A stretch of DNA of 38,917 bases, from assembly GCA_015295905.1 (NCBI GenBank), contig DVEB01000238.1, positions 1-38,917 on the forward strand, given 5' to 3'. Under the pieces are notes generated by a model that made no database searches, was not told the origin of the DNA, and saw nothing but the letters and a program-made list of their open reading frames with translations. The stretch is from Synechococcales cyanobacterium M55_K2018_004. Lineage in GTDB: Bacteria > Cyanobacteriota > Cyanobacteriia > Elainellales > Elainellaceae. Of this stretch, positions 4,413-26,540 are shown piece after piece. Position 1 is the first letter of the stretch, and every line of letters starts with the position of its first letter. The position numbers and the translations under genes are program-made.

Positions 4413-5174
4413 CTACACTTTGGCAGGACTCATGCGGCTCAGAAAAGTTCTGAGGCGATCGCTCTGGGGTTGGGTCAACACCTGCCGCGCTGGGCCTGCT
4501 TCTTCGATTTGTCCTTGGTTGAGAAAGAAAACACGGTGGGCCACGTCACGGGCAAACTGCATCTCATGGGTGACAATCACCATCGTCATGCCTTCGTTTG
4601 CTAGTTGTCGCATCACCTCCAACACTTCGCCCACCAATTCGGGGTCAAGGGCACTAGTGGGTTCATCAAACAACATGATCTTGGGCTTCATACACAGGGA
4701 ACGAGCGATCGCCACCCGCTGTTTTTGGCCGCCAGAGAGTTGGTCGGGGTAGGACTCAGCCTTCTCCAGCAGGCCAACCTTGTCCAATAGCGATCGCGCC
4801 AGTCGCCCACTTTCCTTTTCCGACATCCCCAGCACCTTGCAGGGGGCTAGGGTGAGGTTATCGATCACCTTCATATGGGGAAACAGGTTGAACTGTTGAA
4901 ACACCATCCCCACGTCTGCCCGCAACTTGCGCAGTTGGCTGTGGCTAATTTTCGGATGGGACAGGTCAATGCCATTGACGATCAGCCGCCCACCATTGAT
5001 CGTTTCCAATCGGTTGAAACAGCGCAGCAGTGTGCTTTTTCCACAACCGGAGGGGCCAATCACCGCCACCACTTCGCCCCGCTGAATTTGCCCACTCACC
5101 CCCCGCAACACCTGCAAGGGACCAAAGTTTTTTTCCACCCGGTCAAAGACAATCCCTGCTTCGCCGCTGCTCAT
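4413..5174 (-). CDS. Polar amino-acid ABC transporter ATP-binding protein (GlnQ/HisP type)
   Basis: 253-residue cytoplasmic ATPase that energises a PAAT-family amino-acid importer. Walker A is GPSGCGKST (40-48), the Q-loop lies in VFQQFNLFPH (about 91-100), the ABC signature is LSGGQKQRVAIARSL (about 146), and Walker B is IMLFDEPTSALDPE (about 166). The H-loop is in VIVTHEM. The FNLFPHM segment is characteristic of the GlnQ/HisP/ArtP group. Its binding protein (5692-6549) and permease (6877-7596) are encoded on the opposite strand, so the transporter is split across a divergent region rather than forming one operon. Which amino acid is carried is not determinable; the companion binding protein would decide it. 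Confidence 0.92.
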   Translation of the reverse strand: MSSGEAGIVFDRVEKNFGPLQVLRGVSGQIQRGEVVAVIGPSGCGKSTLLRCFNRLETINGGRLIVNGIDLSHPKISHSQLRKLRADVGMVFQQFNLFPHMKVIDNLTLAPCKVLGMSEKESGRLARSLLDKVGLLEKAESYPDQLSGGQKQRVAIARSLCMKPKIMLFDEPTSALDPELVGEVLEVMRQLANEGMTMVIVTHEMQFARDVAHRVFFLNQGQIEEAGPARQVLTQPQSDRLRTFLSRMSPAKV

Positions 5175-5213
5175 TTGGCTTGAGTTCTCCCCGGTTAACT
5201 AGCTGACTAAACT

Positions 5214-5328
5214 GGATGGGAAATTGCTGGGTCGTGTGGCATTGCTGCACCCAGCAACAAGGCGCAGTGCGCGATGCCGATCCATTCGGGGATGGGAAAT
5301 TGCTGGGTCGTGTGGCATTGCTGCACCC
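5214..5328. repeat. 39-bp direct repeat, two copies 37 bp apart
   Basis: The same 39-base sequence occurs at 5214-5252 and 5290-5328, beginning GGATGGGAAATTGCTGGG and ending TTGCTGCACCC, with a 37-base unique spacer. In the first copy TGCTGGGT and ACCCAGCA form an 8-bp stem around a 16-base loop. In the second copy the right arm is replaced, so the stem is lost. The pair lies just upstream of the ABC ATPase start, in its probable leader or promoter region. No further copies and no cas genes are visible, so it is not treated as CRISPR. Confidence 0.8.
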
Positions 5329-5691
5329 CCATAAACTCATCCTAAAGCATTGGTTCTATCCCCAGGGGCAACTATCCTTAAACCTTGCTTAATCCGCCTG
5401 ACCAATGCTTGATTCAATCGTTAATGTAATGCTGGTGCTCTATTATTAGCATCTATTAGCAGCAATTCTCACCTTGAGCGCCTGGTGTGGTGTTAGCCCA
5501 CTTGTGGCAGACGAGCACCACACCAGCAGTAGTTTCCCTGCAACGTTTGGGTTTCATACTCAGAATTGCTATTCTATTCGCTTTTGGGTTGACAAACGCT
5601 TTGCTTGGTGGGGGCGATCGCCGCAGAAATACCAAGCTGAGAGTGCAGTCAACCCTGCTTACCCCAAAAACTCTTGGAGAACCAGTCTCAA
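5329..5691. other. Divergent intergenic region with an 11-bp inverted repeat
   Basis: This non-coding stretch should hold the promoters for the ABC ATPase (minus) and the binding protein (plus). Two features stand out. CTTAAACC and CTTAATCC (5377-5384 and 5388-5395) form an imperfect pair at 11-base periodicity. CTGGTGTGGTG (5482-5492) and CACCACACCAG (5516-5526) form a perfect inverted repeat around a 23-base loop. The inverted repeat could be an operator or an RNA hairpin. No convincing reading frame is present, and no NtcA consensus (GTA-N8-TAC) was found by eye. Confidence 0.5.
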
Positions 5692-6549
5692 ATGCTTCGC
5701 TTAACCCGTTCCCATTTTTTGCGTCGGTGGCTGTTGGGTGCGCTCGGCTTGTTTTGCGCCGTCACCTTTGCCGCCTGTGGTGCCGGCACTCCCACGGGGG
5801 ATACTTCTGCTCCTTCTGGGGGCAGTCCTGCGGCTACACCTGCGGCAACAATCACGCTGAAGATTGCCCTTGACCCGACCTTTCCCCCCTTTCAGTCCAA
5901 AAATGCCGATGGCACCTTGCAGGGGTTTGATATTGACCTGATCAATGCGATCGCCGACGCCGAAGGATTTGCCGTAGACCTACAGGCGCTTCCCTTCGAC
6001 GGAATCATTCCTGCCCTGCAGGCTGGGACGATGGATGCCACCATCAGCACCATGACCATTACCAAGGAACGCGCAGAAGTGGTGGACTTTACCCGTCCCT
6101 ACTTTAAGGCGGGGCTGGCGATCGCGGTACAAGAGTCCAATACCGACATTACCGGGTTCGAGAGTTTAAATGGTAAGCGCATTGCTGTGCAGATTGGGAC
6201 AACGGGCGAACAGGAAGCACGTAAGGTTCCTGGAGCCGACGTGCGCACCTTTGACAATGCACCGCTGGCCTTGCAGGAACTAGCCAATGGCAACGTAGAC
6301 GCGGTGATCAACGATGCACCAGTGACGTTGTATGCCCTCAAGAGTGGTCAGGTGAACGGCCTCAAGGTGGTAGGCCAACTGTTGACCGAAGAATACTATG
6401 GCATGGCAACGCCGAAGGGATCACCCAATCTGGAACGGTTAAATTCTGGGCTAGGCACCATCATCCAGAATGGCAAGTATCGGGAGATTTACCAGAAGTA
6501 CTTTAGCGGTGAACCACCGACCTTGCCTGATGCAGCACCGCTGTCGTGA
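5692..6549 (+). CDS. Amino-acid ABC transporter substrate-binding lipoprotein (SBP family 3)
   Basis: Periplasmic solute-binding protein of the PAAT (family 3) type, about 285 residues. The N-terminus is a lipoprotein signal: basic start, hydrophobic run, then a lipobox FAAC with the lipidated Cys at about residue 29. A low-complexity Ser/Thr/Pro/Ala/Gly tether follows. The mature domain begins LKIALDPTFPPFQ and contains GFDIDLINAIA, DATISTMTITKERAEVVDFTRPY and AVQIGTTGE, all hallmarks of the family. The ATG at 5692 is preferred over a TTG at 5674 because GGAGA lies 11 bases upstream and the signal peptide then has normal length. The permease follows on the same strand, but only after a 327-bp gap filled with repeats. 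Ligand identity is unknown. Confidence 0.93.
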   Translation: MLRLTRSHFLRRWLLGALGLFCAVTFAACGAGTPTGDTSAPSGGSPAATPAATITLKIALDPTFPPFQSKNADGTLQGFDIDLINAIADAEGFAVDLQALPFDGIIPALQAGTMDATISTMTITKERAEVVDFTRPYFKAGLAIAVQESNTDITGFESLNGKRIAVQIGTTGEQEARKVPGADVRTFDNAPLALQELANGNVDAVINDAPVTLYALKSGQVNGLKVVGQLLTEEYYGMATPKGSPNLERLNSGLGTIIQNGKYREIYQKYFSGEPPTLPDAAPLS

Positions 6550-6601
6550 CGCTGCGTTTCTGCCACAACTTCTAGACCAGAGGCGCTGGTAAATGAGAGC
6601 A

Positions 6602-6723
6602 TGTCACCTTTGCAGGCCCTCATCCCCCAGCCCCTGCCTCCAAGTTGGGAGCAGGGAAGCCGAGCATCTCAACGTTCCTCTCCCAAGTTGGGAGAGGGAT
6701 TCAGGCTGAGGGCAAACGTGACA
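6602..6723. mobile_element. MITE-like element, copy 1 (ends GTCAC/GTGAC)
   Basis: A 122-bp segment bounded by imperfect inverted ends: TGTCACCTTTGC on the left and GCAAACGTGACA on the right. It has the same arrangement of internal blocks (GCAGGCCCTCA, CAAGTTGGGAG, GAGGGCAAACGTGAC) as 29416-29535, 23 kb away, with many substitutions between the two. There is no coding capacity. The internal CTCCCAAGTTGGGAG is itself palindromic. It is probably a non-autonomous, transposase-mobilised relic; no target-site duplication is obvious. Confidence 0.65.
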
Positions 6724-6733
6724 TCACCCTGTT

Positions 6734-6837
6734 ATACGGAATCCGTTGCTTATAGGGTCGGTTAGTTTTTGGTAGAACGCGCGCGCAGCGGGCGTTCTAC
6801 CAAAAACTAACTGCTACTTTATAGGCGGATTCCGTAT
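6734..6837. repeat. Nested palindromic element (12-bp outer and 20-bp inner arms)
   Basis: The outer arms ATACGGAATCCG (6734-6745) and its exact complement (6826-6837) enclose a second, perfect 20-bp inverted repeat: 6761-6780 pairs with 6792-6811 around an 11-base GC-rich loop, GCGCGCAGCGG. It lies directly after the MITE-like copy and ends 39 bp before the permease start. It could fold into a long stem in the mRNA between the binding-protein and permease genes. A partial match to the right outer end is seen at 17920-17933. Confidence 0.85.
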
Positions 6838-6876
6838 CAGACCAGGAGAGTCAACCGCGTTAGGAGAACCAAAACT

Positions 6877-7596
6877 GTGCTGCGATCGCTCGAAATTATT
6901 TGGGATGCGCTGCCCAACTTGCTGTTCGGAGCGTTTGTCACCTTGCAACTGACGGCCATTTCGATCACCCTTGGTCTGATCTTTGGCTCATTGATTGGAA
7001 TTGCTCGCCTGTCTGCCGCTCGTCCGCTGAATCTGGCGGCTCGGGTTTATGTAGACTTCTTCCGGGGCACGCCGCTGCTCGTGCAGATTTTCATGATCTA
7101 TTTTGGCATCCCAGCGCTGGTGCGATCGCTGGGGGGCAATTTCTCCTTCAATCAGTGGGCCGCAGCGGTGATGGCACTTACCCTCAACAGTGCCGCCTAC
7201 CTGGCAGAAATCGTGCGAGCCGGAATTCAGTCCATTGACTTAGGTCAACGGGAAGCGTCCCAGTCCCTTGGCCTGGGGCCAGTGCAGACAATGCGCTACA
7301 TCATCTTTCCCCAGGCATTTCGCCGCATGATTCCGCCGCTGGGCAACGAGTTCATCAGTATGCTGAAGGACACCAGCCTGGTGGCAGTCATCGGGTTTGA
7401 AGAACTCTTCCGCCGGGGGCAACTGATTGTCGCCCAAAACTTCCGGGCGTTTGAAATTTACCTCTCGGTGGCCCTAGTCTACCTAGTGATGACGCTGATC
7501 TTCTCCCAGCTTTTCTCCCAATTAGAACGGTGGATGAATCCCGTCGAACAGGCTCGTCGAACCGTTCATCCCACTACTCCCGCAGGCGAGGCATAG
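6877..7596 (+). CDS. Amino-acid ABC transporter permease (HisM/GlnP type)
   Basis: 239-residue inner-membrane permease of the PAAT family. The first hydrophobic segment begins near residue 10 (LPNLLFGAFVTLQLTAISI), and five membrane segments are expected. The family motif FFRGTPLLVQIFMIYFG lies near residue 63. The cytoplasmic EAA loop reads GQREASQSLGLGPVQTMRYIIFPQAFR, which docks on the ABC ATPase. The GTG at 6877 is chosen because TAGGAG lies about 11 bases upstream and the product then starts at the usual place. It should work with the ATPase at 4413-5174 and the lipoprotein at 5692-6549. Its expression may depend on read-through of the repeats at 6602-6837 or on its own promoter. Confidence 0.93.
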   Translation: MLRSLEIIWDALPNLLFGAFVTLQLTAISITLGLIFGSLIGIARLSAARPLNLAARVYVDFFRGTPLLVQIFMIYFGIPALVRSLGGNFSFNQWAAAVMALTLNSAAYLAEIVRAGIQSIDLGQREASQSLGLGPVQTMRYIIFPQAFRRMIPPLGNEFISMLKDTSLVAVIGFEELFRRGQLIVAQNFRAFEIYLSVALVYLVMTLIFSQLFSQLERWMNPVEQARRTVHPTTPAGEA

Positions 7597-7613: not shown

Positions 7614-8153
7614 TCACGGTTGGCGTGACCCTGCTGCTTTGACAGGCAACAGGTACACTAGCCCCGAAATCAGCGTGAGGGCAACCGAGAGCCAGAACAC
7701 CCAGAGGGCGTAGGGGGAAGCGGCAGTGGGTGGGGCAATGAGGAGGGCGATCGCCCCAATTTGACTCACGGTTTTTAGCTTGCCCCAGAGGTTTGCCCCC
7801 GCAATTTTGGTTTGGTTGACGCGCCATCCTGCGATCGTCAGCTCGCGTGCTAAGACAAGAAACACCCCCCAAGCAGGCACCTGCCCCAGTTCAATCAGCA
7901 CTAGCAGTGGAGCCAGCACCAGTAGCTTATCTACCAGGGGATCCAGAAATTTGCCTAGGTCTGTCACCTGGTTTAAGCGTCGTGCCAAGTAGCCATCCAC
8001 CCAGTCTGTTCCTGCGGCAATGAGAAAAATCACCACCGCAGTCCAGCGATTTTGTTCTAAGGGATGGGCCAGTAGCATCAGCAGCAGTGGCACTCCCAGC
8101 AGGCGAGACAGAGTGACCCAGGTCGGCACGTTAATGGCGGTGAAGGTATTCAT
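7614..8153 (-). CDS. pgsA: CDP-diacylglycerol-glycerol-3-phosphate 3-phosphatidyltransferase
   Basis: Integral membrane enzyme that makes phosphatidylglycerol phosphate from CDP-diacylglycerol and glycerol-3-phosphate. Phosphatidylglycerol is the only phospholipid of thylakoids and is needed by both photosystems. The full CDP-alcohol phosphotransferase signature D-x2-DG-x2-AR-x8-G-x3-D-x3-D is present: DWVDGYLARRLNQ followed by TDLGKFLDPLVDK (about residues 50-76). The 179-residue length is normal, with several hydrophobic helices. The start MNTFTAINVPTWVTLSR fits the family. It converges on the permease gene with 17 bp between stops. The minus-strand DUF937 gene lies upstream, separated by a hairpin. 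Confidence 0.95.
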   Translation of the reverse strand: MNTFTAINVPTWVTLSRLLGVPLLLMLLAHPLEQNRWTAVVIFLIAAGTDWVDGYLARRLNQVTDLGKFLDPLVDKLLVLAPLLVLIELGQVPAWGVFLVLARELTIAGWRVNQTKIAGANLWGKLKTVSQIGAIALLIAPPTAASPYALWVFWLSVALTLISGLVYLLPVKAAGSRQP

Positions 8154-8312: not shown

Positions 8313-8828
8313 TCAGGTTGGAGGGTTCAAAAATCGTGACGCAAACTTCATCACGGTGCCCAAGTCGTTACCGCCACCCTGATCACCTTTCAGAAATGCG
8401 CTCAGTAATGGATTTTCGCCGCGGTTTCCCGGAGTGCTTGCCCCCATATTCAAAAATCCCAGCACAGCAGGGATGAGGGATGGCAGCATACTTTGCAGCA
8501 TTCCCGCATCGAGGCCAGTCTTTTGGGACACAAACTGAACCAACTGTTGTTGCATCTGGGGGGGAATTAGGTTTGTGAGGCCAGTGCCACCAGCGGCATT
8601 GGCGATCTGTCCAATCAGGCCGTCCAACCCTGGCAGTGTCTGTTGCTGTTTAAGCATTGGCCCCAGACCACTACCCAGAGCTGAAACGACTGATTGCATC
8701 TGGTTGGCATCCATTCCTTGGCTGGCTGCAATTTTTTGTAGCGACCCCATCACACCTTCGAGTTGGGCCACACTTCCCTGCTGGTTAGGATTGTTGATGG
8801 AACTAAGCAGATCAAAAACGAGACTCAT
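8313..8828 (-). CDS. DUF937 domain protein
   Basis: 171-residue soluble protein recognised as DUF937 (YidB-like): MSLVFDLLSSINNPNQQGS start, repeated helical blocks rich in Gln, Gly, Leu and Met, and the pattern LQSMLPSLIPAVLGFLNMG towards the end. The molecular function of the family is not established. No signal peptide or membrane helix is visible. The start ATG at 8828 has AAGGA about 8 bases upstream. It is 75 bp downstream of the PstS-like/DUF4912 gene on the same strand, so co-transcription is possible. Gly/Asn-rich segments near the C-terminus look disordered. Confidence 0.8.
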   Translation of the reverse strand: MSLVFDLLSSINNPNQQGSVAQLEGVMGSLQKIAASQGMDANQMQSVVSALGSGLGPMLKQQQTLPGLDGLIGQIANAAGGTGLTNLIPPQMQQQLVQFVSQKTGLDAGMLQSMLPSLIPAVLGFLNMGASTPGNRGENPLLSAFLKGDQGGGNDLGTVMKFASRFLNPPT

Positions 8829-8903: not shown

Positions 8904-11405
8904 CTAAGCATTCGGTACGCGAGCATGAGCAGAGTGAACCAGCGATAACCAGCGTCCGTCATCGGTCATGTAGCCCAGTTCAGCAACATAGTCGCGATCG
9001 CCCGTTAATACCGTGACGGTTCGTTCTGACTCACCCTCACTACACAGATAGGTCTGGGTGTTGTGGGGGGCTTCGTGCTCAATGTTGAGGTTGGTGGCAT
9101 CGTGGATGCGGAGCATCAGCTTGCGGCCTCCCTGCTGCCGTAGGGCGGCCCGATAGCGTTCATCCACATTCCAGACAACAAATGCGGTTTTGCCCCCCAC
9201 TGGCGTTAGGCGAATCGAACAGTCTGCCGCAGATTGGACAAGCGTTTGCCCCTGCTCAACCAGTGAATGAGCGATCGCTCCAACGCCACCCAGGGCAGTG
9301 GTGCTGGCAGCGATCGCCGCTTCCGTGGCATTGCCCAGTGGTGTAGAGATGGCGGCAGCCATCCCGCCAGGGCTAGTGGTTAGGCTGTTGGCAACACCGG
9401 AAACCGTTGTGGCTTGGGGGCTGCTGGCGGGTACATCACTCGCAACGTGGATGTGTTCAGATCGGGCAAGGCTGAGCCAGCGACCATCCTGAGTCGTATA
9501 GCCCAGTTCGGCCACGTAGTCACGATCGCTCACGGGAATCGGCACATGACGATCCTGGTCCAGTTCACTCACGGTGTATTCCTGGGTAGAATGAGCCGCT
9601 TGAGTGTCCAGGTTCAAGTCAGTGGCATCATGAATCCGTAGTTTCAGGTCACGCCCCCCCTGACGACGCAGTTCCGCTTTGAGCGCATCCGGCACTTCCC
9701 AGTAGGCATAAGCGCTCTCAGCATTACGGGGAACTAGGATGATCCGCGCGGCTGGCATCCCTACAGCAGACTGAGCAGCAACCGTCTGAGCAACAGGCGC
9801 TGGACTCTTGAGGGCCTGGGCGACTGCTGCGGCCCCCGCCCCGGTTGCCATCACCCCCGCTGTGCTGGGAGCGATCGCAGCTTGGGCAGCCTGAGAAATT
9901 TTCTCACTGGTTGTGCAAGCGGGCACACGCACTGGCGCCGAATGAGTAATTTCTAACCATCGACCGTCCGCCGTTTTGTAGCCTAGTGCAGCAATATAGT
10001 CCCGGTCATCGCGCGAGATGGGCAGGTGGAGGTCTGGATCCGTCGTTGAGCAATCAAATTCTTGAAACTGCTCTGGTCTCTGGTGCTGAGCGTTTTTCCA
10101 ATCTGTCACGTCGTAGAGGCGCAGTTTCAGGTCACGTCCGCCCTGCTGTTGCAGCGCTTGCAACTGTTCCGCAGGCACTTCCCAGTAAGCATAGGCATGA
10201 CGGCAATCACGGGGAGTCAAAACCATGCGTCCTTTGGTGGTATCTGCTGCCGCTAGGGGAGCCACTGCGGGCGGTGCCCCTTTCCCTTTCAACAACCAAG
10301 CCAGCAATGGAATCCCCACAATCGGCAGGAGGAGCCACCACCAGGGAGAGATCCCCCCAGCTTGGGCTGTTTCCGCAGGGGCAGTGGTTGCGGGTGGGGC
10401 GATCGCTTCAGCCGGGCTAGATTGAGGCGTTGCGGTTGCAGCCGGAGCAGTCACCGCAGCCGGGGCGGGTTGGGGCGTTGCAGTGGCAGGGGCTGCTCCC
10501 GGTGTTGCAGGTACGGCGGCGGGTTGTCCTGGCGCCTGTGCAGAGGCACCAGTGGCAATTCCTAAAAACGCCTGCACCGGCAGACTCGGTGTGCCTCGAT
10601 AGACATAAAAGCGGGGTTGAGAGAAGGGATAGCGGGAATCGCTGGGCAGCGTCTTGTGCATAGCAACAATGCGCACATCGCTGCGATCGCTCACTTGGTC
10701 TGCCACCGCATAACCAATGCCGTCATCGCCTAAGGCAGAGATGACCGCCGCAGTATCGTCTGTACTGACGGGATCGGCAGTGGCCCCAGTAGTAAAGGGA
10801 GCGGTTTGAAACACTGGATAGTTGCGAAACGCCTGCCGAGTGTCGCTGGATTCTGGCCGATCGACAAAGCGAATGGGGCCAGGTGCACCGCCTAGCTGAG
10901 ACCAATCGGTAATTTCACCCCGGAAGATTTTGGCAAATTGCTCAAAGGTGAGATCGCCTTGAAACGGGCTGTTGGGGCCGACAATAATGGCAATCTTAGC
11001 TCGCTCCAGAGGCACTGCAGTGAGTCCCTGATTGGCTTCTGTTGCCGTTAAATTCCGTCCGATTGCTGCCAAATCAATCGTCCCTCGAAGCAACTCTTGG
11101 AGCGCCACTTCAGTACCATTGGTTGAAATCGTGACATTTGAACCTGCAAATCGATCTAAAAACTGTTCTTGCAAAGATTTGTTGGGTACTGCCATGCTGG
11201 GACTACCATCAATTCTGACGGTGCTACCGTCGGGCAACGAACTGGGCAGAGTAAAGGTCGGGGCGCTGGCAGGAGCCTGAGCTAACAGCTTGCCCGGTTC
11301 AAGCGTGATCACTGCACTGGCAACCAATGCAGGAGCCATTAGCAACGCTGTTAACGACTTCGGTACGGGTGATACGGATGAGAGTATCTTCTTTTTTCTA
11401 ACCAT
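8904..11405 (-). CDS. PstS-like periplasmic binding domain, one membrane helix and three DUF4912 repeats
   Basis: 833-residue modular protein. A basic N-terminus and hydrophobic run (about 1-43, ending LLAQA) look like a signal peptide or anchor. Residues about 55-305 resemble phosphate-binding PstS-type proteins: STVRIDGSPSM, GTIDLAAIGRNLTATE, FAKIFRGEITDWSQLGG and GDDGIGYAVADQVSD. A Pro/Ala/Thr linker of about 50 residues follows, then a Trp-rich membrane helix (about 351-373, PWWWLLLPIVGIPLLAWLL) and KGKG. Three DUF4912 modules come next (about 392-493, 552-653, 727-833), each with AYxYWEVP or a variant, QQGGRDLKLRLYD-like and DRDYxAELGYxTxDGRWL blocks, joined by Ala-rich linkers. The layout suggests an envelope-to-cytosol sensor or scaffold, not a transporter subunit: no pst permease or ATPase genes are nearby. 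The function of DUF4912 is not known to me. Confidence 0.82.
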   Translation of the reverse strand: MVRKKKILSSVSPVPKSLTALLMAPALVASAVITLEPGKLLAQAPASAPTFTLPSSLPDGSTVRIDGSPSMAVPNKSLQEQFLDRFAGSNVTISTNGTEVALQELLRGTIDLAAIGRNLTATEANQGLTAVPLERAKIAIIVGPNSPFQGDLTFEQFAKIFRGEITDWSQLGGAPGPIRFVDRPESSDTRQAFRNYPVFQTAPFTTGATADPVSTDDTAAVISALGDDGIGYAVADQVSDRSDVRIVAMHKTLPSDSRYPFSQPRFYVYRGTPSLPVQAFLGIATGASAQAPGQPAAVPATPGAAPATATPQPAPAAVTAPAATATPQSSPAEAIAPPATTAPAETAQAGGISPWWWLLLPIVGIPLLAWLLKGKGAPPAVAPLAAADTTKGRMVLTPRDCRHAYAYWEVPAEQLQALQQQGGRDLKLRLYDVTDWKNAQHQRPEQFQEFDCSTTDPDLHLPISRDDRDYIAALGYKTADGRWLEITHSAPVRVPACTTSEKISQAAQAAIAPSTAGVMATGAGAAAVAQALKSPAPVAQTVAAQSAVGMPAARIILVPRNAESAYAYWEVPDALKAELRRQGGRDLKLRIHDATDLNLDTQAAHSTQEYTVSELDQDRHVPIPVSDRDYVAELGYTTQDGRWLSLARSEHIHVASDVPASSPQATTVSGVANSLTTSPGGMAAAISTPLGNATEAAIAASTTALGGVGAIAHSLVEQGQTLVQSAADCSIRLTPVGGKTAFVVWNVDERYRAALRQQGGRKLMLRIHDATNLNIEHEAPHNTQTYLCSEGESERTVTVLTGDRDYVAELGYMTDDGRWLSLVHSAHARVPNA

Positions 11406-24877: not shown

Positions 24878-25864
24878 TTATTCCTCAACCTGATAGCCAA
24901 ACTCTGCCAAGTGCAGGCGCGATTGTCGCCACTTTGGTTGAACCCGCACAAACAACTCTAGGTAAACCTTCCCCATGATCAGCTTTTGGATCTGTTGACG
25001 AGCAGCGGTGCCAATGGCCTTCAGCATGGTTCCCCCCTTGCCGATCAGGATGCCCTTCTGAGACTTGCGCTCGACGTGGATCGTGGCTAGGATGCGGGTG
25101 ATGTCCGGTGCTTCTTCAACTCGGTCAATGGCGATCGCCACAGAATGGGGCACCTCCTCCCGCGTGTGCAGTAAAATTTGTTCGCGGATCAGTTCACCCA
25201 TGATGAAGCGTTCGGGCTGGTCTGTCACCAAGTCGGGAGGATAATAGTAGGGGCCGGGTTCCAGGTGTTGGATGAGTTCAGCCTGGAGGGATTGCAGTCC
25301 TTCACCCGTCAGAGCAGAGAACTTGACAACTGTCCAGCCTTGCTGATGGGCCAAGTGGCGATAGCTCTCATCAATGTCGGGGCGATCGCCAGGTTGCACA
25401 TCTGCCTTGTTGATCCCCAGCAGAACAAGGGCTTCGGTGTGTTTGAGCAGGTCAGTAATGTAGCGATCGCCGCCCCCCAGTTCCGTTGTTCCGTCTACCA
25501 CAAACAGCACCACATCAACGGATTGAATCGCAACCTTCGCATTTTGTACTAGCACTTTGCCCAATTCGTGGTGGGGCTTGTGGATACCAGGGGTATCGAC
25601 AAAAATAATCTGTGCAGTGGGGGTGGTGAGGATGCCCCGCAGACGGTTGCGTGTGGTCTGAGCCACAGGTGATGTGATCGCAATCTTCTGACCAATCAAC
25701 GCATTCATCAACGTAGATTTGCCCACATTCGGACGACCAATAATCCCCACAAAGCCAGAGCGGAAGTTGGGCGGAGCCACCGGGATCATGCTGCCGGGGA
25801 TCTCGAGATCGAGCCGCAGATCAGCGGCTGGAGACGGTTGGGGGGAGGGGAGTTGGTCTGTCAT
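24878..25864 (-). CDS. era: GTPase Era
   Basis: 328-residue TRAFAC GTPase that binds the 3' end of 16S rRNA and assists 30S maturation. G1 is GRPNVGKST (about 43-51), G2 lies in the QTTRNRLRG segment, G3 is DTPG, and G4 is NKAD. A C-terminal KH domain holds the GKGGTMLKAIG loop. The N-terminal extension of about 35 residues before the G domain is Pro/Ser-rich and variable. The ATG at 25864 is preferred; the frame extends to 25951, but that would overlap the upstream gene and adds no conserved sequence. It starts 16 bp after the Hcp-like gene on the same strand, so the two are probably co-transcribed. Confidence 0.96.
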   Translation of the reverse strand: MTDQLPSPQPSPAADLRLDLEIPGSMIPVAPPNFRSGFVGIIGRPNVGKSTLMNALIGQKIAITSPVAQTTRNRLRGILTTPTAQIIFVDTPGIHKPHHELGKVLVQNAKVAIQSVDVVLFVVDGTTELGGGDRYITDLLKHTEALVLLGINKADVQPGDRPDIDESYRHLAHQQGWTVVKFSALTGEGLQSLQAELIQHLEPGPYYYPPDLVTDQPERFIMGELIREQILLHTREEVPHSVAIAIDRVEEAPDITRILATIHVERKSQKGILIGKGGTMLKAIGTAARQQIQKLIMGKVYLELFVRVQPKWRQSRLHLAEFGYQVEE

Positions 25865-25880
25865 GGGGAAATCCGTGAGC

Positions 25881-26450
25881 CTACCGGCGGATGGTGACAA
25901 AGTCTTCGTGCTCAATACCACCGTTCTCATAACGCCAGCCAATTTGAGCAAAGGAGAAGGTGACTTCCTCCACCGGAGGAGCCTCTGCCGTTGCCGGACT
26001 CAGGGCATCAGGGCTGACCTGTTTCACCGAAGCCACTCGCCCCTGCTGAAAACTGACTGTGTAGTACTGCTCCGTTGTGCCATCCCCCGTAGGAGACAGA
26101 CGGTAGAAGCGAAACTCTCCTTCGACCACGGCATTGTCGGTCAGGGCTTTGAAGAGTAGAGGAGACGATTTATCGATGCGTTTGGTGATCCGAATCGGCG
26201 CATATTGACGTCTGCCGGTGGCGATCGCCCCATTGCGCTCAAACGGCACAAGCACAGACTGCTCGTAGGACAAACACTCGATTGCACCAGCACGTCCTAA
26301 AGTCACTTGCTGGCTCTCACCCTGAATTTCGCTGCCATTGGCTTGCAGAAACAGGTAGACAGGCTGTGCGGCGTTCGCCCTCGGCTGCGGCAGCCAGACT
26401 GCCAACAGGCACAAGGCAACCGTCAAAAACCATCGGCTCCAGCGGTACAT
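25881..26450 (-). CDS. Exported Hcp-family (type VI tube-like) protein
   Basis: 189 residues. A Sec-type signal peptide (RWFLTVALCLLAVWL, likely cleavage after RANA at about residue 28) precedes a domain resembling Hcp1: VYLFLQANGSEIQGES, then ITKRIDKSSPLLFKAL (the Hcp core motif with DKSSP), YYTVSFQQGRVASVKQV, and EEVTFSFAQIGWRYE near the C-terminus. Classical Hcp forms hexameric rings of the type VI secretion tube and has no signal peptide. Here no tss genes are nearby and the protein should be periplasmic or secreted, so it is probably a re-purposed Hcp fold. The ATG at 26450 is chosen because GGAGA lies just upstream; the frame opens at 26492 without support. It lies immediately upstream of era. 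Confidence 0.8.
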   Translation of the reverse strand: MYRWSRWFLTVALCLLAVWLPQPRANAAQPVYLFLQANGSEIQGESQQVTLGRAGAIECLSYEQSVLVPFERNGAIATGRRQYAPIRITKRIDKSSPLLFKALTDNAVVEGEFRFYRLSPTGDGTTEQYYTVSFQQGRVASVKQVSPDALSPATAEAPPVEEVTFSFAQIGWRYENGGIEHEDFVTIRR

Positions 26451-26540
26451 GTCATCTCCATCTCTCAAACGTAGATTGCAGTATCGATACAAACAGGAAC
26501 GGGCTGCAACTCAGGAACAGGAATTAAATAACCCGGGGAA

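Follow-up and report, generated by a model that had tools for sequence, protein, structure and literature searches.

What does a PstS-like binding domain do when it is joined, through a single membrane helix, to three DUF4912 domains, and has such a protein any part in phosphate handling? The question is raised by a reading frame on the minus strand of the window (the whole 38,917-nucleotide stretch of DNA analysed here, from Synechococcales cyanobacterium M55_K2018_004), which runs from an ATG start at 11405 to 8904 and encodes 833 aa. Judged from the reading frame, Pfam and AlphaFold2, the gene (8904..11405, minus strand, as are all features of the protein given below) is built from a signal peptide, a PstS-like periplasmic binding protein (PBP) domain, a Pro/Ala linker, a transmembrane (TM) helix and three DUF4912 copies. 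The putative N-terminal signal peptide covers residues 1–44 (11274..11405) and ends in ...LLAQA, a predicted cleavage site placed from the sequence and the hydrophobic N-termini of relatives. The PstS/Sll0540-like binding domain follows at residues 47–291 (10533..11267), recognised by Pfam, closest structure, AlphaFold2 and Foldseek, with PBP_like_2 scoring 96 bits at residues 58–278 against a cut-off of 27. A disordered, Pro/Ala-rich linker (residues 292–353, 10347..10532, pLDDT <50) then leads to a Trp-rich TM helix, residues 354–372 (10290..10346), of sequence PWWWLLLPIVGIPLLAWLL, with KGKG immediately after it, on the side predicted to face the cytoplasm.

Three stretches of the C-terminal half exceed the gathering cut-off of DUF4912 (PF16258; 277.5 vs 29.4 bits), and all are recovered by both Pfam and AlphaFold2: copy 1 at residues 387–497 (9915..10247), copy 2 at 550–661 (9423..9758) and copy 3 at 724–833 (8907..9236). 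An AlphaFold2 model of the full protein, built on 29 sequences, places the binding domain (47–291) and the three DUF4912 domains mostly at pLDDT >90, while the linkers between them fall below 50, giving a beads-on-string model. The composition given in the first-pass annotation, a PstS-like domain, a TM helix and three DUF4912 domains, is thus borne out by Pfam and AlphaFold2.

This architecture is no chance fusion, because it recurs widely in cyanobacteria. In a draw of 244 genomes from the phylum, 88 had a match, and in about 36 the PBP match lay within a long ORF (list rows counted by hand). The unit of binding domain plus helix is represented by 119 fused proteins from 116 loci, and in a set of 80 named loci 66 of 83 PBP-containing frames carry one to five DUF4912 domains. 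These 80 loci come from a PBP-alignment scan that preferentially picks up fused members containing RGEIT[DN]WS, so the census is biased; the two locus sets also partly overlap (L047 and L134 are apparently one genome), so what is counted is loci, which need not come from different genomes. Among the hosts are Leptolyngbyaceae, Oculatellaceae, Calothrix, Fischerella, Scytonema, Okeania and Nodosilinea. Two loci in which PBP-TM and DUF4912 lie in separate ORFs (L138, L147) were considered as split genes and not used, the second ORF of L138 being in the same frame, so that a premature stop or an assembly error is likely. In the window's own genome, contig 223 encodes a paralogue of the form PBP-TM-2xDUF4912, and contig 283 a Rho_N-DUF4912 protein that lacks a signal peptide. 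In one member of the family, L007:7495-10881(+), a same-genome paralogue, HVPGS(A/V)Q repeated in tandem over a long stretch separates DUF4912 from a C-terminal domain that the canonical Rho_N-DUF4912 protein also has.

On which side of the membrane the two halves lie can be predicted from the relatives. Of 119 proteins, 118 have a hydrophobic helix after the PBP domain, and a hydrophobic N-terminus or export signal is present in 117 of 118; the hydropathy scale favours Trp, and the Trp count of the helix is no independent result. Among 118 relatives net charge rises across the helix, from its N- to its C-terminal side, in 99 and falls in 15, and by the positive-inside pattern DUF4912 is therefore placed in the cytoplasm. 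A separate line of evidence for a C-terminus in the cytoplasm is given by relatives that carry, after this helix, TPR together with phosphorylase, or acetyl-CoA synthetase. The canonical DUF4912 protein, with an N-terminal Rho_N and no signal peptide, is consistent with a cytoplasmic DUF4912. The layout predicted from sequence is accordingly that of a single-pass type I protein, with an export signal, one TM helix and a cytoplasmic C-terminus, and the earlier proposal that DUF4912 lies across the membrane from the binding domain gains support from all three of the helix, the charges and the N-termini.

The binding domain is closest, both by sequence and by fold, to Sll0540 of Synechocystis (9L8J), with an E-value of 6.5e-46 over residues 57–290, and in Foldseek a TM score of 0.92, 1.7 A and 40% identity; other PstS proteins rank next. 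The NCBIfam PstS subfamily model TIGR02136 is matched at 82.2 bits, below its cut-off of 206.6. In E. coli PstS phosphate is contacted by T10, F11, S38, D56, R135, S139, G140 and T141 (PMC10846223), to which P69, S70, T98, R117, R183, S187, D188 and T189 of the window protein correspond by alignment, equivalences that rest on the motifs R-x3-S-G-T and G-S-T-S rather than on superposition. By this alignment T98, R183, S187 and T189 are kept, T10, F11 and G140 are replaced (P69, S70 and D188), and R117 stands at the position of D56, as in the short-type 4GD5.

These changes are general to the fused proteins, as a comparison of 123 fused PBPs with 24 solo relatives indicates (one of the latter, encoded on contig 280 of the window's own genome, is a PBP of more distant kinship). 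Position 188 is Asp or Glu in 119 of 123 fused domains and Gly in all 24 solos, giving SDT for SGT; position 182 is Asp in 123/123 against Asn in 24/24, position 263 Gln in 116/123 against Arg in 24/24, and position 116 Gly in 110/123 against Ser in 24/24, while Thr occupies position 69 in only 9/123 fused domains against 23/24 solos. R117 is invariant (123/123), and R183, S187 and T189 are kept in more than 90%. In a tree every fused protein falls into one group without solos, at a node support of only 0.66, and nodes inside that group along the window's path have support of 0.77–0.94. On these sequences the fused binding domains are a clade of their own with a conserved but altered pocket. 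The strong conservation of the cleft motifs (R117 and D182 are each found in 123/123) implies selection on the binding site; it argues for a working pocket, and the changes argue for a specificity other than that of PstS. The pocket presumably has a ligand in the living cell. Because the pocket is altered and Pst permease genes are absent nearby, phosphate as ligand and simple anion sensing are unproven. The first-pass annotation had called for a check on the ligand-coordinating residues and had spoken of the binding of a periplasmic anion. They are not all lost, R183, S187, T189, T98 and R117 remaining, while T69 and the Gly of SGT are changed; as stated, the anion claim finds no support in fused members that have SDT for SGT, D182 and Q263 and have replaced T69.

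Within the cytoplasmic half, the three DUF4912 copies are probably not interchangeable. AlphaFold2 models copy 2 (102 sequences, pLDDT 95.2, pTM 0.87) as a beta sandwich with one helix, whose top Foldseek matches in the PDB are nearly all fibronectin type III (FN3) domains, with E-values from 1.3e-4; the best VIA Z is 9.7, at 3.1 A over 89 residues and about 10% sequence identity. The modelled DUF4912 fold is fibronectin-III-like, and homology to fibronectin was dropped since identity of this order supports likeness of fold alone; FN3 is moreover a very common fold that carries little functional information. In a tree of 72 DUF4912 copies most first copies cluster, copy 1 of the window included (0.89), and the last copies of a three-repeat, mostly DUF937-linked subfamily do so with support of 1.0 (n=9, copy 3 of the window included). 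This points to positional orthologues that are old, differentiated and specialised, and makes doubtful the earlier suggestion that three diverged copies mean multivalent binding. DUF4912 occurs in nearly all sampled Cyanobacteriia, even in small genomes (1.6–3 Mb); the window protein itself matched nothing in these small genomes at E 1e-20. Searches for DUF4912 in phages and plasmids gave no match. A literature search found no functional study of DUF4912, only an incidental mention in one paper. The domain presumably binds proteins.

A candidate for what it binds is encoded next door. The gene at 8313..8828 (minus strand, 171 aa, no signal peptide seen), 75 bp downstream of the fused gene, matches DUF937 (PF06078) at 29.1 bits against a gathering cut-off of 25.4 and is a probable operon partner. 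DUF937 is present at 14 of 116 fused loci, on the same strand in 14/14: in 12 it follows the fused gene immediately, at 13–205 bp, and in 2 it immediately precedes it. The remaining neighbours vary. Strand agreement alone would have a chance of 2^-14 if the loci were independent. The locus survey thus confirms the DUF937 neighbour noted earlier as a real partner gene, and its product would be the likeliest partner of the DUF4912 arm; with DUF937 at just 14 of 116 loci, the family as a whole cannot depend on it. An EF-hand/dockerin-like DxDxDG loop was seen, by eye and regular expression, at the C-terminus of 8 of the 14 linked copies, and in the window's DUF937 (8313-8828(-)) it is degenerate and lost. 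No DUF937 structures were found in the PDB. Elsewhere in the window, a pgsA-like gene (7614-8153(-)) lies 160 bp downstream of DUF937 on the same strand and might share its transcript, and is not conserved as a neighbour among the relatives examined; an ORF with a T6SS Hcp-family match (25881-26492(-), E 8e-22) overlaps the beginning of the ORF 24878-25951, which encodes an Era-like GTPase.

The inner modules are not always DUF4912. L039:11762-16237(-) and L079:4446-9101(+) encode PBP-TM-glycogen phosphorylase proteins, each adjoining a PBP-DUF4912 gene. Neither has the PLP lysine (TGNLI vs TGNMKF of active enzymes), and in both NDTHP reads NDTDP, without the histidine, so that they are predicted to be membrane-bound pseudo-enzymes. 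L106:9851-14056(+) encodes PBP-TM-acetyl-CoA synthetase next to another PBP-TM protein, whose repeats are rich in Gly and Ala, L120 and L156 have what were judged from sequence to be coiled coils after PBP-TM, and L076:7091-10699(-) has a WD40 propeller between PBP and TM, and TPR after the helix; this beta-propeller would sit outside the cell membrane. The PBP-plus-helix unit might, tentatively, be a general cyanobacterial receptor chassis in which one type of periplasmic cue gates the recruitment of varied cytoplasmic machines, and if so it would form a transmembrane scaffold class apart from two-component and ABC systems. A 131-aa domain without a Pfam match was also seen just upstream of the fused gene at about 17 loci (e.g. 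L089:1716-2111(+)), is fused to the C-terminus in many of these and is repeated inside the L120 coiled-coil protein; it was not found in the window's genome in a search run without a positive control. In L081, L083 and L085 the fused gene is followed, after 128–131 bp, by a co-directional gene for a BMC shell protein (CcmK-like).

Could the protein nevertheless serve phosphate uptake, as a membrane-tethered phosphate-binding subunit feeding a Pst permease encoded elsewhere, its DUF4912 tail a passive anchor or regulator? The PstS-like fold, the retention of R183, S187, T189 and T98 and the two pst permease sets elsewhere in the window's genome speak for this. The window itself, however, shows no pst genes, the nearby ABC genes (4413-7596) being of the polar-amino-acid type, and queries with PstC/PstA of both own-genome sets found a Pst permease at 0 of 116 fused loci, 86 of them longer than 15 kb; the absence of pst genes alongside, already remarked for the window, extends, as regards the permease, to these loci. 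The Gly of SGT and the T10 equivalent (Pro in the window) are moreover kept by solo relatives (24/24 and 23/24) and lost by most of the fused proteins, and the TIGR02136 score of 82 falls short of 207. Such a feeder role is unlikely. Unlikely too is a receptor for phosphate or another anion that reports phosphate status to the cytoplasm, exactly as the first-pass annotation proposed: half of the residues that contact phosphate in E. coli PstS are retained, and one class of members has a phosphorylase-like inner domain, but at or near the pocket two acidic residues have become fixed and an Arg is lost, and the phosphorylase copies look catalytically dead. Nor was a Pho-box signal found, the upstream region of the window gene scoring 17/24 against a shuffled median of 18, in a test of little power since the genome's own pstS controls reach only 19–20.

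A purely structural tether, in which the PBP domain would dock passively on an envelope protein and fix cytoplasmic assemblies to the membrane without sensing a small ligand, accounts well for an outer module that stays constant while the inner ones are swapped (DUF4912, phosphorylase, acetyl-CoA synthetase, coiled coil, TPR). Yet the cleft residues are among the most conserved of the domain, and a pure docking domain would not need that, which leaves this reading rather improbable. Given somewhat better than an even chance is a single-pass type I membrane receptor or scaffold, with a remodelled pocket and DUF4912 as docking arm, that recruits cytoplasmic partners to the membrane; the receptor- or scaffold-like build proposed from the outset is supported to this extent. 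In such a receptor or scaffold the signal peptide would export the binding-protein domain, which would bind a ligand other than, or besides, phosphate in its conserved, remodelled pocket, and the disordered linker and the one Trp-rich helix would anchor it. Three FN3-like DUF4912 domains on flexible linkers would form a cytoplasmic docking arm, with the co-directional DUF937 protein as likeliest docking partner. Ligand binding outside may change clustering or conformation, and hence recruitment inside, so that the PBP-DUF4912 protein would signal across the membrane.

Set beside known systems, the protein combines familiar parts in a different arrangement. With Sll0540 of Synechocystis, a solo PstS-like protein, it has the PBP fold in common, but Sll0540 as crystallised is a PBP domain only and keeps N, SGT and R in place of the D, SDT and Q of the fused clade. 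The title of the 9L8J entry mentions an evolutionary hotspot; a literature search found no functional or structural paper on Sll0540 or 9L8J, whose authors may already discuss the fused clade. PstS itself (4GD5 and the E. coli protein) has the same fold, and the Arg, Ser and Thr of the R-x3-S-x-T loop are kept, but the window protein is membrane-anchored, has a cytoplasmic tail and an altered pocket, and stands without a pst operon; the label "phosphate-binding" on fused proteins is probably wrong. DUF4912 is common to this protein and to the canonical cyanobacterial Rho_N + DUF4912 protein (ca. 430 aa), which is near-universal in the class and lacks signal peptide, PBP and TM helix, and the contig 223 paralogue is among the fused members that carry the C-terminal part of that canonical protein. 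DUF4912, itself near-universal in Cyanobacteriia, thereby gains a predicted fold and a predicted cellular side. BvgS-type kinases are sensors with periplasmic binding-protein domains and TM helices. The window protein carries no domain known from signalling, such as a kinase or cyclase, yet it would work like them, with a binding-protein domain outside and an effector inside. The fused family suggests a class of transmembrane receptors or scaffolds in cyanobacteria, so far undescribed, whose cytoplasmic modules can be swapped.
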